DNA of 36,522 nt, from positions 1-36,522 of the forward strand of contig JAHWJV010000002.1 in the NCBI GenBank assembly GCA_019348265.1. The letters run 5' to 3'. This DNA comes from Gemmatimonadota bacterium. Lineage in GTDB: Bacteria > Gemmatimonadota > Gemmatimonadetes > Longimicrobiales > Longimicrobiaceae. The first letter of the stretch is position 1, and every line of letters starts with the position of its first letter. The translations under genes and the position numbers were made by a program. The notes beneath the pieces were generated by a model, which made no database searches, was not told the origin of the DNA, and saw nothing but the letters and a program-made list of their open reading frames with translations. Of this stretch, positions 4,875 through 36,240 are shown one piece after another.

Positions 4875-6257
4875 CTACTTACCGATGCAGAACTGGGCGA
4901 AGAGCTGCCCGAGGACCTCGTCGGGGGTGACGGCCCCGATGAGCTCCTCCAGATGATCGCGGGCCGCCGCGAGGTGGGTCGCGGCGATCTCCGGCGGGAC
5001 GTCACCGTCCACGGCCGTGACGAAGCTCGTGAGCTCGTCCATGGCCGAGCCCAGTGCGCGGGCGTGCCGCTCGCGTGTGACGAGCGGAGCCTCGCCGGGC
5101 TCGCCCAGGATTCCTCCGAAAGCAAGCCGCAGCAGCTCCTCCCGCAGTCGAGCGAGGCCGGTGCCGTCCACGACGGACACGGCGATCGCAGGAGGCGAGC
5201 CGTTGACCGGTGCGGACCCGGGGCGGCGGGCCCCGAGCTCGTCCGCCTTGGTCCTGACGAGTAGGGCATGCGAAGGGTCGACGCCGGCGAGAAAGCCGAG
5301 CTCAGCCGGGTCGAGATCTCGCGCTGCGTCAGCGCAGAACAGGACGATGTTGGCGGCGCGGAGGTAGCGCCGGGCGACTTCGATACCGATGCCTTCCACC
5401 CGGTCCGTCGTCTCGCGAAGCCCGGCCGTATCGGCGAGTCGAAAGGGATACCCGTCGAGTACGATGGAAGCTTCCAGCGCGTCGCGCGTCGTTCCGGGGA
5501 TCTCGGTGACGATCGCCCGCTCGGTACCCAGCAGTGCGTTGAACAGAGAGGACTTCCCGGAGTTGGGCAGACCCGCCAGGACGACCAGCGCCCCTTCGCG
5601 CAGCATCTCCCCCTGTGGAGCGGTCGCGAGGAGGGTGCGGATCCTCGCGGTAATCTCACGGGCCGCGGCCGCGGTGCGGGCGGGCGGGACGGGTGGCTCG
5701 TCCTCTTCCGGGAAGTCGATGGAGTAGGTGAGGAGCGCCTCCACGTGCAGGATCGCGGCGCGCAGCTCTTCGATTCGCCTGGAAAGGCCGCGCTCCATCT
5801 GGAAGATCGCCGCCCGGTGCAGCGCGGGCGAGCGTCCCTCGACCAGGTCGAGCACCGCCTCTGCCTGCAGGAGGTCGAGCTTTCCGTTGTCGAGCGCGCG
5901 GTGGGTGAACTCGCCGGGCCGGGCGACGACCGCGCCGGCGGCGCAGACGGCCGCAAGCACCAGCTGCGGTGTCAGGACGCCGCCGTGCGTGGAGATCTCG
6001 ACCGTGTCCTCACCCGTGTAGCTGTGCGGCGCGGGGAAGTAGGAGACGAGTGCGCGATCGACGAGATCGCCCGTGTCGGGGTGGCGCACGACGAGCAGCC
6101 GCTGAACGCGCGGGGCGGGGGGCTCGGCCCCCAGCGCCGGGCACACCCGCAGCAGACAGCCGGCGGCATCCGCCCCGGAGATTCGTACGAGCGCTACCGC
6201 GCCGCGGCCCGCCGGGGTAGCGATAGCCGCGATGGTCGTGGCGAGGGAGCTGGGCAT
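4875..6257 (-). CDS. mnmE: tRNA modification GTPase MnmE (TrmE)
   Basis: TTIAAIATPAGRGAVALVRISG..., GLPNSGKSSLFNALLG, DTAGLRETTDRVEGIGIE and C-terminal FCIGK. Confidence 0.97.
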   Translation of the reverse strand: MPSSLATTIAAIATPAGRGAVALVRISGADAAGCLLRVCPALGAEPPAPRVQRLLVVRHPDTGDLVDRALVSYFPAPHSYTGEDTVEISTHGGVLTPQLVLAAVCAAGAVVARPGEFTHRALDNGKLDLLQAEAVLDLVEGRSPALHRAAIFQMERGLSRRIEELRAAILHVEALLTYSIDFPEEDEPPVPPARTAAAAREITARIRTLLATAPQGEMLREGALVVLAGLPNSGKSSLFNALLGTERAIVTEIPGTTRDALEASIVLDGYPFRLADTAGLRETTDRVEGIGIEVARRYLRAANIVLFCADAARDLDPAELGFLAGVDPSHALLVRTKADELGARRPGSAPVNGSPPAIAVSVVDGTGLARLREELLRLAFGGILGEPGEAPLVTRERHARALGSAMDELTSFVTAVDGDVPPEIAATHLAAARDHLEELIGAVTPDEVLGQLFAQFCIGK

Positions 6258-6799: not shown

Positions 6800-8020
6800 T
6801 CAGCGTGGACGGGACGAGCCGGTCGCCACCAGGTCGTAGTACCGGCGGACGCGTCCCGAATCGTACTCCCCCACCAGCGTCGGCAGGCTCTGAAGGAGCT
6901 GTGCGCTCCGCCAGGGGGAGCTCGTCTGCGCGATCGGTACGGACGCCGGCCCGCGAAATACACTCCGGATGATGACGCTGCGCTCGTCCAGCGGAAGCCG
7001 CTTCACGTTCGCCAGGAAGGGATCGAGCTTCCCATCCCGCACGACATAATAGTCCACATTCGAGATGTAATAAGCCGAAACGCGCTCGCCCCGTGCGCGC
7101 AGGAAGCTCGCGATCGCCGGCAGAGCCCCGGCGCCGGCGAGGTCGCCCACTGCAGGGATCACCCCGTTTCGTAGCTGAAGGGAGCGGACGAACTGGAAGG
7201 AATGGTCGCTGGCGAGATAGCTCGCCTGCCGCCCGCCCATGTCCCGCTCCAGGATGAGCTGCCGGAGGCTCGGGTAGTGCGGCTGGGGAGCGCGCCCGAA
7301 GCTCTCGAATCGAAGCCCCAGCCCTTGCTCGGCGAAAGCGGAGTGGAAGCGGCGCAGCGTCCGCCACTCCCCTGAATCGATAGGGACACCGTATCCACGT
7401 ATCCGCTGCACCACGCGTGCGTGCGAATCCTCGAAGGCGGAGCGGAGAAGAGGAGTCCTGTCCAGGTACTCGACGATCGAGTCGATGGGCTCGGCGGGAT
7501 CGCGGGTCGCGGGCACCGGGCGTCCCGTGAGCAGCGCGAGGTACTCCAATCGGTCGCGAGAGAGCTCGAACAGAGACTTGAAGAGGAGGTGCTCGAGCAG
7601 ATTGTCCCGCCGGATATCCACCAGAATGGCGATGGCCGGTCGAATCCTGGCGATATAGGAGAAGTTCTGATCCGGGCCGACGCCGATATAGGCCCCGCCG
7701 CGCACGCCACGCGCGTCCAGCTCGTCCATCACGTGGAGATAGGAGCCCTCATTGGAGATGAGGTTGTCCGTATCGAAGAAGCCGCCTGGCTCGGAGAGCC
7801 GCGCAACCTGGGTGGCGAAGGCGGTGTCCGCCTGTACCGCCGCGGCCTCTCCGCGACCCTGTGCGCAAGCGGGGGCCAGCGGGAGAAGCAGGCCGAGGAG
7901 GAGCGGCAGCAGGCGAACCGCGGCGCGACGGCAGCGCGGCAGGCCGGGCGGTGCTGTCGGGGTCGATCGGAAGTAACGCACCGGGGAAGCTCCGGGACGG
8001 GGCTGTGCGCTGGAGGTCAC
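6800..8020 (-). CDS. Exported protein of unknown function (possibly LIC_10091-like)
   Basis: Signal-like LLPLLLGLLLPLAPACAQ, then DNLISNEGSYLHVMDELDARGVRGGAYIGVGPDQNFSYIARIRPAIAILVDIRRDNLLEHLLFKSLFE. Family recalled, not verified. Confidence 0.7.
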   Translation of the reverse strand: MTSSAQPRPGASPVRYFRSTPTAPPGLPRCRRAAVRLLPLLLGLLLPLAPACAQGRGEAAAVQADTAFATQVARLSEPGGFFDTDNLISNEGSYLHVMDELDARGVRGGAYIGVGPDQNFSYIARIRPAIAILVDIRRDNLLEHLLFKSLFELSRDRLEYLALLTGRPVPATRDPAEPIDSIVEYLDRTPLLRSAFEDSHARVVQRIRGYGVPIDSGEWRTLRRFHSAFAEQGLGLRFESFGRAPQPHYPSLRQLILERDMGGRQASYLASDHSFQFVRSLQLRNGVIPAVGDLAGAGALPAIASFLRARGERVSAYYISNVDYYVVRDGKLDPFLANVKRLPLDERSVIIRSVFRGPASVPIAQTSSPWRSAQLLQSLPTLVGEYDSGRVRRYYDLVATGSSRPR

Positions 8021-8379
8021 CCGGTTGAGTGGCTCTCCGTCTGTTGGTTGAACACCGGCTCCGGCTCGGGCGCGGCTTCGGGAACCGGCAGCTGCAGCGC
8101 GCGGCGGCGATGACCCAGGCGCTCAATGTACTCCACACCCTTTTCGGTGATGCCGACCGGACGGCCGGTGCCGTCCCAGGTGAGGAAATCCGCGTAGGTG
8201 AGATGCGCCACCACCTGTACGGCCGACCCTACCGGCAGCCCGAGGTCCGACGCCAGCTTTCCAACCGCGACCACCCCCTGCCCCTCGCACGCTAGAGAAT
8301 AGACGTGCTGCAGCAGAATGAAGCTTCCCCGTTCCCTCTCCTCCGCCGCGAAATCCCACGTCCGCTCTGAATCGTTCAT
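8017..8379 (-). CDS. Small winged-helix-like DNA-binding protein
   Basis: MNDSERTWDFAAEERERGSFILLQHVYSLACEGQGVVAVGKLASDLGLPVGSAVQVVAHLTYADFLTWDGTGRPVGITEKGVEYIERL resembles a wHTH with ITEKG wing. Overlaps the downstream CDS by 4 bp. Confidence 0.6.
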   Translation of the reverse strand: MNDSERTWDFAAEERERGSFILLQHVYSLACEGQGVVAVGKLASDLGLPVGSAVQVVAHLTYADFLTWDGTGRPVGITEKGVEYIERLGHRRRALQLPVPEAAPEPEPVFNQQTESHSTG

Positions 8380-9200
8380 CTCCCCCGGTCTCCCAGGCGC
8401 GCCGTGCCTCTCGGCCCGAACTTTCCGTCGCGCACAAAAAGAAAACGCCGCCAACAGTCGACAACTCAGGTCGATCGCTGGCGGCCCGGCGGACATGACG
8501 ACCCAGGTCGCGTTAGTCCCGTGGCTCTGCGTCGCCGCCTTTCGGCGGGTTTGCTCTGAGCAGCGTCAGAACTGTAACTGTCCTTCCGTCCTTCTGGAGG
8601 CCCGCCGCGCGAGCCGCTCAGTCATAAAGGTGGCGCAAAGCCGCCGCCAGGGGAAGAGGGAGCACGAGAAGCCCTGCCCCCGCAGCGTTCCCGGCGGCCG
8701 CCAAAGGCCCTCTCGCTTGACTCGTCGGAGCGAAGCCGCAGATTAGCTGCTGAGCAGCCAGTATTCTGCTCCGGTCAGGCGAAGCGACGGCGCACGAGCC
8801 TGTGAGCAGCCCCGCGTCAGCCGCTGAATCCGCGAGCCCAGGAACGGGGGTCCACCGCTCCACCGAGCTCAACCGTCTGGCCGAGCGTGCTGCGTTCGCC
8901 CGGACGTGCGTTTCGGTGGAACAGTGATGGGCACCCGCGGTACTGTCTATCCTGAGCCGAGTTTCCGCGCCGCCCCTAGCAATCCGCGTAGCGCACGAGA
9001 CCCTGCTGCTGCATTGGTGGTGCCCGGAACAGCACCCCGTGGGCTGACGGGACCGCCCCGCGTCAGGGAACGCTCGACCGGGCTAGAGCTCCCGTCGGTT
9101 TTCCAATTGACAAATTTCAACGACCAGACGGTCCGCCGCGCCGGCGCCGTCGTGCTCCGACCTCTTCCGTGTCGTCGGACTCAACCTGATCGTATCGAAG

Positions 9201-15589: not shown

Positions 15590-17311
15590 TCAACCCTTCT
15601 TCCGCTTTCCCTTGCTCGCCGTCGCAGGCTGCGGCTTCGGCGGGTTGTTCCGCTTCTGCTCCTCCGACGTTCGTTTGCGCTCGAGAGCGATCAGCATCTG
15701 CTGCGGCATGCTGGCGACATTGGTCGCGGCGTAGTAGAGGTTCAGGCCCGACGGCATGGTGAAGAAGAAGATCCCGATCATTAGCGGCATGATGTACATC
15801 ATCATCTTCATCTGCGCGTTCTGCTCCATGCCGCTCAGCTTGGTGCTGATCCACTGCAGCGCGAACATGGACGCGACGAGGAACAGCGGCAGGATGTAAA
15901 ATGGGTCACGCAGCGAAAGATCTGGGAGCCAGAGGAACTCGGCTCCGCGGAAGCCGATGGTGCTCTGGAAGACGAAGAAGAGCGTGATCAGCACCGGGAA
16001 GGGCACCAGCATGGGGAGGCACCCGGCCATCGGGTTGAAGCCCTCCTCCCTGTACAGCCGGAGCATCTCCTCCTGCTGCTTCTGCGGGTTGTCCGCGTAT
16101 TTTTCGCGGATCTCCTGCATCAAAGGTGCGACGGCTGCGTTCTTCATCTGCGCCCGCATGGCGCGCGCGTTGAGGGGCCAGAGGACGACGCGCATCATCA
16201 CCCCGAAGATGACGAGGACCCAGCCGTAGCCGATGCCGAGCTTGTCGTGCAGGTAGTTGAGGATGGAGACGATCAGCGCGGCGAACGGACGGATGACCGG
16301 CTGGAGCCAGCGGTACCCGTACGGTGTCGCGTCCTCGAGCTCGTATCCTACGGCCTTGAGCCGGCCGTACTCCTGCGGCCCGAGGTAAGCCTGAAAGGCG
16401 AAGGTGCCATCGGTCGCGATCGGCAGCTCGGTGGTAAGTGCCGCGCGGGGGAGCTCGACGACCGAGGTGTCGCCGTCCTCGACGAATGCCTGACGAACGT
16501 CCGGGAGATCGACCACCCGGCCGCCGCTCATCGGCCGGTCGTCGCCGGCCACGATGGCGGCGAGGAAGTACTTGTCCTTGATCCCGGCCCAGGCGAGCGG
16601 CCCGGGAATGGTCGCGGTGCCTTCGAGCTTCCCGAGTGCCTCACGGTCTACCTTGCCCGCGACGCGGGTCACCAGCGCGAGCTCCCGCTCGGAGTGGTGG
16701 TCGAAGGCCTCGTGCGGCGCCAGCCCCGGGCCGACGTTCGTCAGCAGTGTGGCGCGGTCCTGTAGTCCGGTGACCCGCCCCTGCACTCCGACCAGGTAGG
16801 TGCCTGGTCGGAAGGTGTAGGTGAGCTCCGCCCCGAAGCCGGAGGGATCCGCGTACGAGAAGCGAACGGTCTGCGTCCCGCCCGCGGAATCCACGACCAG
16901 CGAGCGGGCGCTCGGCTGAAAGGGTGCGGCCCGGAGGTTCAGCGTGTCCGCGCCGACTACGATCCGATGCGCAAGGAAATCGCTGGTTCCGCCCGGGACG
17001 AGCTGTACCGGCTTCCCAGGGTGCGTGTAGGAGGGGTAGCGAAACAGCTCCGCCCGGGTCAGTGCCGCCCCGCGGGTGGAGAAGACGTACTCGTACAGAT
17101 TCGAGCGCACGACGACGGAGTCCCGCGCCGCGGCCGGAGCCGTCTGAAGGGCGGGTGCCGCCGCGACCGGCCGCGCAGGTCGCGGCCGCGCGATGGCGGC
17201 ACTGTCCGCCTTCGCCCCCGGCTCGACCGGCGCAACGGGGGGAAAGAAGATGTTGGTGATCATGATCACGGCGCCCATGAGCAGCACCGCGATGAGGAGA
17301 CGTTTTTCCAT
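15590..17311 (-). CDS. yidC: Membrane protein insertase YidC
   Basis: MEKRLLIAVLLMGAVIMITNIFFPP..., YGWVLVIFGVMMRVVLWPLNARAMRAQMKNAAVAPLMQEIREKYADNPQKQQEEMLRLYREEGFNPMAGCLPMLVPFPVLITLFFVFQ. Confidence 0.97.
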   Translation of the reverse strand: MEKRLLIAVLLMGAVIMITNIFFPPVAPVEPGAKADSAAIARPRPARPVAAAPALQTAPAAARDSVVVRSNLYEYVFSTRGAALTRAELFRYPSYTHPGKPVQLVPGGTSDFLAHRIVVGADTLNLRAAPFQPSARSLVVDSAGGTQTVRFSYADPSGFGAELTYTFRPGTYLVGVQGRVTGLQDRATLLTNVGPGLAPHEAFDHHSERELALVTRVAGKVDREALGKLEGTATIPGPLAWAGIKDKYFLAAIVAGDDRPMSGGRVVDLPDVRQAFVEDGDTSVVELPRAALTTELPIATDGTFAFQAYLGPQEYGRLKAVGYELEDATPYGYRWLQPVIRPFAALIVSILNYLHDKLGIGYGWVLVIFGVMMRVVLWPLNARAMRAQMKNAAVAPLMQEIREKYADNPQKQQEEMLRLYREEGFNPMAGCLPMLVPFPVLITLFFVFQSTIGFRGAEFLWLPDLSLRDPFYILPLFLVASMFALQWISTKLSGMEQNAQMKMMMYIMPLMIGIFFFTMPSGLNLYYAATNVASMPQQMLIALERKRTSEEQKRNNPPKPQPATASKGKRKKG

Positions 17312-17466
17312 GAGGCTGTCGGCTATCGGCTATCGGCTATCGGTCGACGAACCCATCTACGACCGGCCGGCCGTTCTGGTTGCAACTTTCTGGGTGCCAT
17401 CTACCTCGCGCCGCGGCGGGTCCCAGGAGCAGGACCGATAGCCGACAGCCGATAGCCGATAGCCTC
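17312..17466. repeat. Heptad inverted-arm element E3 (TCGGCTA family)
   Basis: Arms 17312-17345 GAGGCTG TCGGCTA TCGGCTA TCGGCTA TCGGTC and 17433-17466 GACCGATAGCCGACAGCCGATAGCCGATAGCCTC are reverse complements at 32/34 positions around an 87-nt spacer. The element exactly fills the gap between the yidC ATG and the yidD stop. Confidence 0.88.
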
Positions 17467-17679
17467 CTATTCCACCGGATCGTACCCGCCCTTCGCGAAG
17501 GGATGACAGCGCAGGATGCGGCGAAACGCCATCCATCCGCCGCGGGCGGCGCCGTACTTCTGCACTGCCTCCAGCCCGTAGGCGGAGCAGGTCGGGTAGT
17601 AGCGGCAGGAGGGGGGCGTCAGCGGTGAGATGCGCTTCCGATAGAAGCGGATCGCGCCAAGCATCATCCCCTGGAGCAC
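17467..17679 (-). CDS. yidD: Membrane protein insertion efficiency factor YidD
   Basis: [62 protein letters not shown]. Confidence 0.97.
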
Positions 17680-18342: not shown

Positions 18343-18373
18343 CGTCAGTCTTCAGTCGTCAGTCTTCAGTCTC
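18343..18373. repeat. Heptad element E4, single arm (TCAGTCT family)
   Basis: TCAGTCT TCAGTCG TCAGTCT TCAGTCT. No clear inverted partner nearby. Confidence 0.75.
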
Positions 18374-28587: not shown

Positions 28588-28821
28588 CGACCTGGAGGAG
28601 AGGGGTGAATCCGGCCGGAAGCTTACCCCCGCAGCGGTAGCGTCGGCAACCTGACGCGTCGGACCCACAGCTTGCCCCGGCCGCCCCAAATCCGCGCCCG
28701 CCGCCTTCGCCGACGCATTCCGCCGCGCTCCCGCGATGGCGAAGCCATCGTGGCGGTCATGCTCGGCTCCGGGCTTTCCGGCTTACGCGGGCCGCTGTCT
28801 CCGTTCCGACGAACATAGCAG

Positions 28822-28865
28822 AAGGAAATGCGCGTGGCTCCTCGACGGAGTACGCGCATTTCCTT
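28822..28865. terminator. Strong hairpin between PAP2 gene and V4R-like gene
   Basis: AAGGAAATGCGCGT / ACGCGCATTTCCTT, 14-bp perfect stem extended by CTCC/GGAG, loop TCGAC. Confidence 0.7.
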
Positions 28866-28967
28866 GCTATCTCAAAAGGCTCGCTGATGGAAGCCGAGAC
28901 CTATGTCTTTGTCGCGATCCGCCGGGCCTACATCACCGCCTCTGCGCCGGCGTGTCGTTTGATCCCG

Positions 28968-29011
28968 CTGTTCCCGGTTCCCTGTTCTCCGTCCCTGTCT
29001 CCTGTTTCCTT
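28968..29011. repeat. Heptad element E6, single arm (TGTTCCC family)
   Basis: TGTTCCC GGTTCCC TGTTCTC CGTCCCTG TCTCCTG TTTCC, abutting the TAA of the V4R-like gene (29012-29014). Confidence 0.65.
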
Positions 29012-34790: not shown

Positions 34791-34870
34791 GCAAATTTTG
34801 AGTTTTGAATTTTTTAATTTGAATTCTGCCAGTCTCAATTTAAAATTCAAAATTCAAAATTCAAAATTGC
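34791..34870. repeat. Heptad inverted-arm element E10 (AAAATTC family)
   Basis: Left AATTTTG AGTTTTG AATTTTTTAATTTG AATTCTG. Right CAGTCTCAATTTAAAATTC AAAATTC AAAATTC AAAATTG. Strongly AT-rich island in GC-rich DNA. Confidence 0.85.
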
Positions 34871-36165: not shown

Positions 36166-36240
36166 ACCGCAGTCTCCAGTCGCCAGTCGCCATTTTCCAG
36201 CCGACCCGGGCTGGCGACTGACGGCTGGCACCTGCAACCA
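36166..36240. repeat. Heptad inverted-arm element E11 (CCAGTCG family)
   Basis: Contiguous heptads from 36169: GCAGTCT CCAGTCG CCAGTCG CCATTTT CCAGCCG | ACCCGGG | CTGGCGA CTGACGG CTGGCAC CTGCAAC. Bounded by the clpP stop and the msrA RBS. Confidence 0.85.

Follow-up and report, generated by a model that had tools for sequence, protein, structure and literature searches.

Cyanobacterial heptad repeats were recognised decades ago, and we know of no agreed function or mechanism of spread for them.

The hairpin-forming cyanobacterial heptads were described as STRR (PMC2670836; see also PMC4692102). The repeats studied here resemble STRR in being 7-bp tandem units which are intergenic, dispersed over many spacers, represented by several families per genome and able to form hairpins. 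They differ in belonging to another phylum and in their G+C-shifted main heptad, GATAGCC. The STRR accounts (PMC2670836; PMC4692102) include neither an end-to-end polarity of the arrays nor a link to the S23 protein, both of which are described below.

TAACTGA repeats, proposed to act in translational control in Beggiatoaceae and also present in cyanobacteria and Bacteroidetes (PMC4679880), have a heptad related to the one found here (TAACTGA to TAGCTGA/TAGCCGA), likewise point towards start codons devoid of a Shine-Dalgarno (SD) sequence and include essential genes among their targets. However, 132 out of 170 TAACTGA arrays lead to starts without a ribosome binding site and 12 to stops (PMC4679880), whereas arrays at stops and inverted pairs are equally common in the genome considered here.

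The intervening sequences of 23S rRNA constitute another relevant group. In Coxiella, heptameric repeats are located upstream of the S23 gene and vary between strains, and the stem of the intervening sequence is cut by RNase III (PMC4990558). The Coxiella sequence and an Azospirillum one (L307, see below) share with our locus an inverted-repeat stem with heptads, and their core can hold S23. In contrast, the copy next to yidC lies between protein genes, has no S23 in its core and belongs to a lineage where no RNase III was found; another locus of the same genome (L188) does have S23 in the core. MITE, REP and REPIN elements are similarly small, dispersed, intergenic and palindromic, but here there is no conserved core, and the tandem-heptad arms differ between species.

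The yidD-yidC spacer

The window, i.e., the whole stretch of 36,522 nucleotides analysed, is contig C222 of a fragmented 3.8 Mb Gemmatimonadota assembly (72% complete) from an uncultured organism. The gene order on its minus strand is rpmH, rnpA, yidD, yidC; YidD, RnpA and YidC identities are supported by profile search, and rpmH is our own reading of the sequence. The yidD-yidC gap is exactly 155 bp long and is divided into a 34-nt arm, an 87-nt core and a second 34-nt arm (Table 1). Read along the minus strand, the stop codon TAG of yidD (17469-17467) is followed immediately by the element (17466-17312), which in turn adjoins the ATG of yidC (17311-17309); there is no spare base at either end, precisely as originally predicted.

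Table 1. Features of the yidD-yidC region and the S23 remnant of the window.
Feature	Position	Strand	Remarks
yidC	15590..17311	-	Start MEKRLLIA kept in relatives; profile match
yidC-side (3') heptad arm	17312..17345	-	GACCGATAGCCGATAGCCGATAGCCGACAGCCTC in yidC sense; last base adjoins yidC ATG
Core (87-nt hairpin loop)	17346..17432	-	Occurs once in the genome; search gave no relative
yidD-side (5') heptad arm	17433..17466	-	GAGGCTATCGGCTATCGGCTGTCGGCTATCGGTC in yidC sense; starts directly after yidD stop
yidD	17467..17667	-	Profile match
S23 / 23S_rRNA_IVP (PF05635) remnant	28782..28940	+	GTTCCCT-type array just downstream (~28968-29010)

Each arm comprises about four heptads plus flanks. The arms are complementary at 32 of 34 positions (94%), and the two differences, also correctly reported in the original prediction, appear within the 34-bp stem of the yidC-sense RNA as one G.U pair and one A.C mismatch. 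The sequence upstream of yidC had been described as consisting entirely of repeat, which is true of the arm adjoining the ATG and untrue of the spacer as a whole: the arms cover only 68 of its 155 bp, and the core is non-repeat. The predicted hairpin has a folding energy of -96.1 kcal/mol compared to a mean of -62.8 kcal/mol for shuffled sequences (z = -8.2), which is far from chance.

We could find neither an S23 remnant nor an ORF of the S23 family in the core, and it matches no other sequence in the genome. No known RNA family was found at the spacer. A MITE with a conserved core was rejected, as the core at yidC is a single copy and the 21 cores compared are mostly unrelated. An intrinsic terminator was rejected too: there is no GC hairpin followed by a U run, and the stem runs directly into the ATG.

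The element had been said to replace the intergenic region, but no relative has a spacer that can be clearly aligned with the core or with the entire 155 bp. The only hint of alignment was obtained for the relative G001 (p 0.03), the other relatives not exceeding shuffled sequences, and a conserved non-repeat origin of the spacer was sought among relatives and not found. In G001 itself, yidC is preceded by a separate short hairpin and by degenerate heptads.

Elsewhere in the window, further heptad arrays, belonging to other families, occupy spacers at 18345-18372, 34837-34868 and 36170-36192 (CAGTCTT, AATTCAA and CAGTCGC, respectively). A c-di-GMP-I riboswitch (RF01051, 57.8 bits) is located at 8477-8565 on the minus strand, before the gene at 8017-8379.

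Heptad arrays are numerous and polar

The census of period-7 arrays covered 793,500 bp of the genome: contigs C1-C47 were unselected, and the others were chosen for holding the heptad. Genes were called with a purpose-written hexamer model, so the start positions are approximate. GGCTATCGGCTATCGG and its variants (up to 2 mismatches) occur at 292 places in the genome. There are 166 period-7 arrays in the 793,500 bp, 147 of them intergenic. The preference for this period is evident from contigs C1-C47, which contain 45 period-7 arrays and 0 to 7 arrays for every other period from 4 to 15 except 14.

The arrays of the CTATC/CAGTC families obey a polarity rule. GGCTATC is found beside the left gene (L) and GATAGCC beside the right one (R) in 82 out of 92 cases (p 3e-15); in the gene's own sense, GATAGCC precedes starts and GGCTATC follows stops. 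Spacers with two arrays are arranged as LR 30 times, RR once and RL never. The rule also holds in the unselected contigs (23/24, with seven LR pairs), and the second family, AGGGAAC/GTTCCCT, has the same polarity (15/17). Of the LR pairs, 23 lie between co-directional genes, 4 between divergent and 3 between convergent ones. At starts there are 40 forward arrays and one reverse array, and 42 arrays are found at stops. The median distance from an array is 3 nt to the stop codon and 21 nt to the start, the start calls being less certain.

The original prediction treated the yidC copy as exceptional. This view is not supported, given the number of arrays in 793 kb and the lack of SD in front of yidC in relatives as well: the copy is ordinary within its own genome and belongs to a widespread and poorly understood element.

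Selection for RNA pairing was sought as an excess of G.U among arm mismatches, and there was no sign of it (13 G.U vs 21 A.C in the sense strand). Since such an excess is missing, the hairpin may simply accompany the element instead of being a selected RNA structure. The cores of L070, L191, L198, L201 and L276 have in common a GC-rich hairpin of the CCCCCGCTCC type; these hairpins are probably terminators retained between the arms. On contig C9 (L001, ~1490-1530), a GGCTATC array is apparently translated as the N-terminus of a signal-peptide-like protein (MKKKRLSAIGCRLS...).

Heptad sequences differ between genomes. GATAGCC triplets are present at 96+88 places here, at few in G001, G007 and G008, and at none in the rest of 61 genomes. 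G007, the nearest relative by yidC (61% identical), has nearly the same density of period-7 arrays (94 per Mb vs 98 in this genome) and the same LR arrangement, including an LR pair in the ilvB-ilvN spacer, but its heptads are GGATAAC and AATTACG. As density and layout match while the heptads differ, the architecture is kept and each genome has its own heptad "dialect". The orthologous leuD spacer was considered for comparison and dropped, as the gene was not found in this assembly. In a Nostocales cyanobacterium (G062), period-7 arrays reach 303 per Mb and follow the same polarity (26/32) with TAACTGA heptads. AACAGGG, AATAGGG and AGCTATC are common to this genome and the cyanobacterial one, three tandem copies of TARCYGA occur in both, and the main heptad GATAGCC is two transitions away from GATAACT.

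Translation of yidC

An SD sequence was accepted 4-13 nt upstream of the start, after PMC4679880, and the printed spacers of relatives were judged by eye. The reported lack of an SD sequence next to the yidC ATG was borne out: the only GGAGG overlaps the yidD stop codon, about 150 nt from the yidC start. In nine relatives of the same family, where yidC begins with MEKR or MERR and the spacers are 29-174 nt long, no SD was present at the usual distance (0/9). A yidC start further downstream with a normal ribosome binding site was looked for in relatives' spacers and not found; the MEKR/MERR start is conserved among relatives, and the downstream start was therefore rejected. In this genome, SD precedes 141 of 448 genes (31%) without an upstream array, compared to 16% for shuffled sequences; where an array is present upstream, the figure is 1 of 26, and about 69% of genes have none. 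Since yidC of relatives and most genes here lack it, the absence of SD is a lineage trait and not an effect peculiar to the element.

Opening the yidC start in the full read-through RNA was predicted to require 35.8 kcal/mol, compared to 7-13 kcal/mol in relatives and 12.8 kcal/mol for shuffled spacers. For RNAs starting 10-140 nt upstream the cost is 4-17 kcal/mol, and it rises steeply once most of the 5' arm is included. Since the full-length hairpin buries the start in these folding models, yidC is probably translated from RNAs which start or are cut inside the spacer.

We searched for RNase III with PF00636, with PF14622 in most genomes and with TIGR02191 in G000. No RNase III domain was detected in this genome or in seven related Gemmatimonadota (the eight being G000, G001, G006, G007, G008, G011, G021 and G022), while the controls and two cyanobacteria were matched. 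The lineage may lack this enzyme, and excision by RNase III, as in rRNA intervening sequences, is not supported here. With the natural cutter missing from the search results, the model would need either a different nuclease or transcription from a promoter within the core; no sigma-70-like promoter or terminator was recognised in the spacer or its core.

Association with S23

In the same genome, a locus upstream of ilvN (L188, contig C140) contains a (GGCTATC)4 arm at 5722-5751 and a (GATAGCC)4 arm at 6122-6151, with an intact S23 gene (23S rRNA intervening-sequence protein, PF05635, E 4e-36) between them. As this is the end of the contig, ilvB is outside the sequence. The window also has an S23 remnant (Table 1), and the array after it precedes the stop of the next gene; the remnant with its array represents another element of this kind, in a decayed state. 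Contig C265 gave a weak S23 match.

S23 genes were then picked from a plasmid collection by protein similarity alone, giving 34 records, nearly all cyanobacterial. Period-7 arrays flank 12 of the first 15 cyanobacterial S23 genes on both sides, compared to 4 of 79 other genes (p 1.5e-9), and inverted complementary flanks accompany 13 of these 15 vs 5 of 79. With ten more S23 genes, inverted flanks are found in 18/25 vs 5/100 and arrays on both sides in 13/25 vs 4/100. Several plasmids have one context, and about a dozen of those in the first batch are independent, so that the p value given above is an understatement. S23 elements are also located inside operons, between nrdB and nrdA (L293), cas6 and cas4 (L292, L305) and cmr2 and cmr3 (L308). 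The cas6-cas4 site holds S23 with different heptad arms in two cyanobacterial genera.

One of the ten added genes, from Azospirillum (L307), is an S23 insertion within the 23S rRNA gene and has degenerate heptad arms, and the inverted arms of a Gemmatirosa S23 gene (L303, 2840-2925 and 3352-3388) have period 8 instead of 7. The association is thus based mostly on cyanobacterial plasmids together with two cases here, one in Gemmatirosa and one in Azospirillum. No S23 was found in phages or viral contigs. Our literature search returned no account tying S23 to heptad repeats in general.

Discussion

Our preferred explanation, to which we assign a probability of roughly 0.65, is that the yidD-yidC spacer is a copy of a dispersed heptad-armed element which lacks S23 here and is tolerated, with yidC expressed from RNAs started or cut within the spacer. 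It is built from sequence and computation. The spacer is one of many dispersed inverted repeats with inward tandem-heptad arms and a variable core. Arm length would change in 7-bp steps, and the arms would be homogenised within each genome to the local dialect. We infer from the arms and architecture in common that the yidD-yidC copy is a putative S23-less relation, either non-autonomous or decayed, of the elements that include 23S rRNA intervening sequences. A position outside coding sequence, in a genome where most genes are translated without SD, could explain why the copy is tolerated. In RNA its arms would pair into a 34-bp stem that reaches down to the AUG of yidC, so that little YidC would be made from full read-through transcripts. 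Translation from RNAs begun or cut in the spacer would unlink yidC from rnpA-yidD.

The heptads might instead be neutral and microsatellite-like, slippage building the arrays and template switching turning them into palindromes with no element or protein involved. Arrays that vary in length and in their heptad both inside a genome and from one genome to another, mostly unrelated cores and the lack of detectable selection for RNA pairing all agree with this, yet slippage leaves unexplained why period 7 is favoured exclusively, why single and paired arrays are polar relative to gene ends in two phyla and why S23 is enriched between the arms. We therefore regard a neutral origin as unlikely. Even less probable, in our opinion, is translational control, in which start-side heptads would bind a protein of the S1, Csp or Csr type that replaces SD. 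The 40 forward arrays leading to starts, the single SD among the 26 genes with an upstream array and the parallel with the Beggiatoaceae TAACTGA repeats (PMC4679880) speak for it; however, the 42 arrays at stops are as many as those at starts and are placed more tightly (3 vs 21 nt), convergent spacers also hold pairs, and relatives without arrays lack SD too.

A feature acting at the DNA level, i.e., cruciform extrusion or binding of nucleoid proteins at gene boundaries as proposed for REP/BIME, would account for LR pairs occurring alike in co-directional, convergent and divergent spacers. There is no conserved core or fixed heptad for a protein to read, though, and this proposal appears very improbable to us. 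The S23-less heptad-armed element remains the reading we favour.

We also consider, rather tentatively and at somewhat less than even odds, that heptad repeats of cyanobacteria and other bacteria and 23S rRNA intervening sequences form one mobile class, inserted at gene ends or in rRNA, in which S23 would take part in the spread and S23-less copies, like that at yidD-yidC, would depend on it. The inverted heptad arms of this class would occur with or without the gene for S23, which is a four-helix-bundle protein.

Overall, arrays that are polar in two phyla and linked to S23 genes point to a specific candidate protein and yield a model that can be tested. Repeat and rRNA-insertion biology would thereby be extended to mRNA operons of Gemmatimonadota, where an essential gene, yidC, can follow immediately after a 34-bp stem, the lineage initiating translation mostly without SD.
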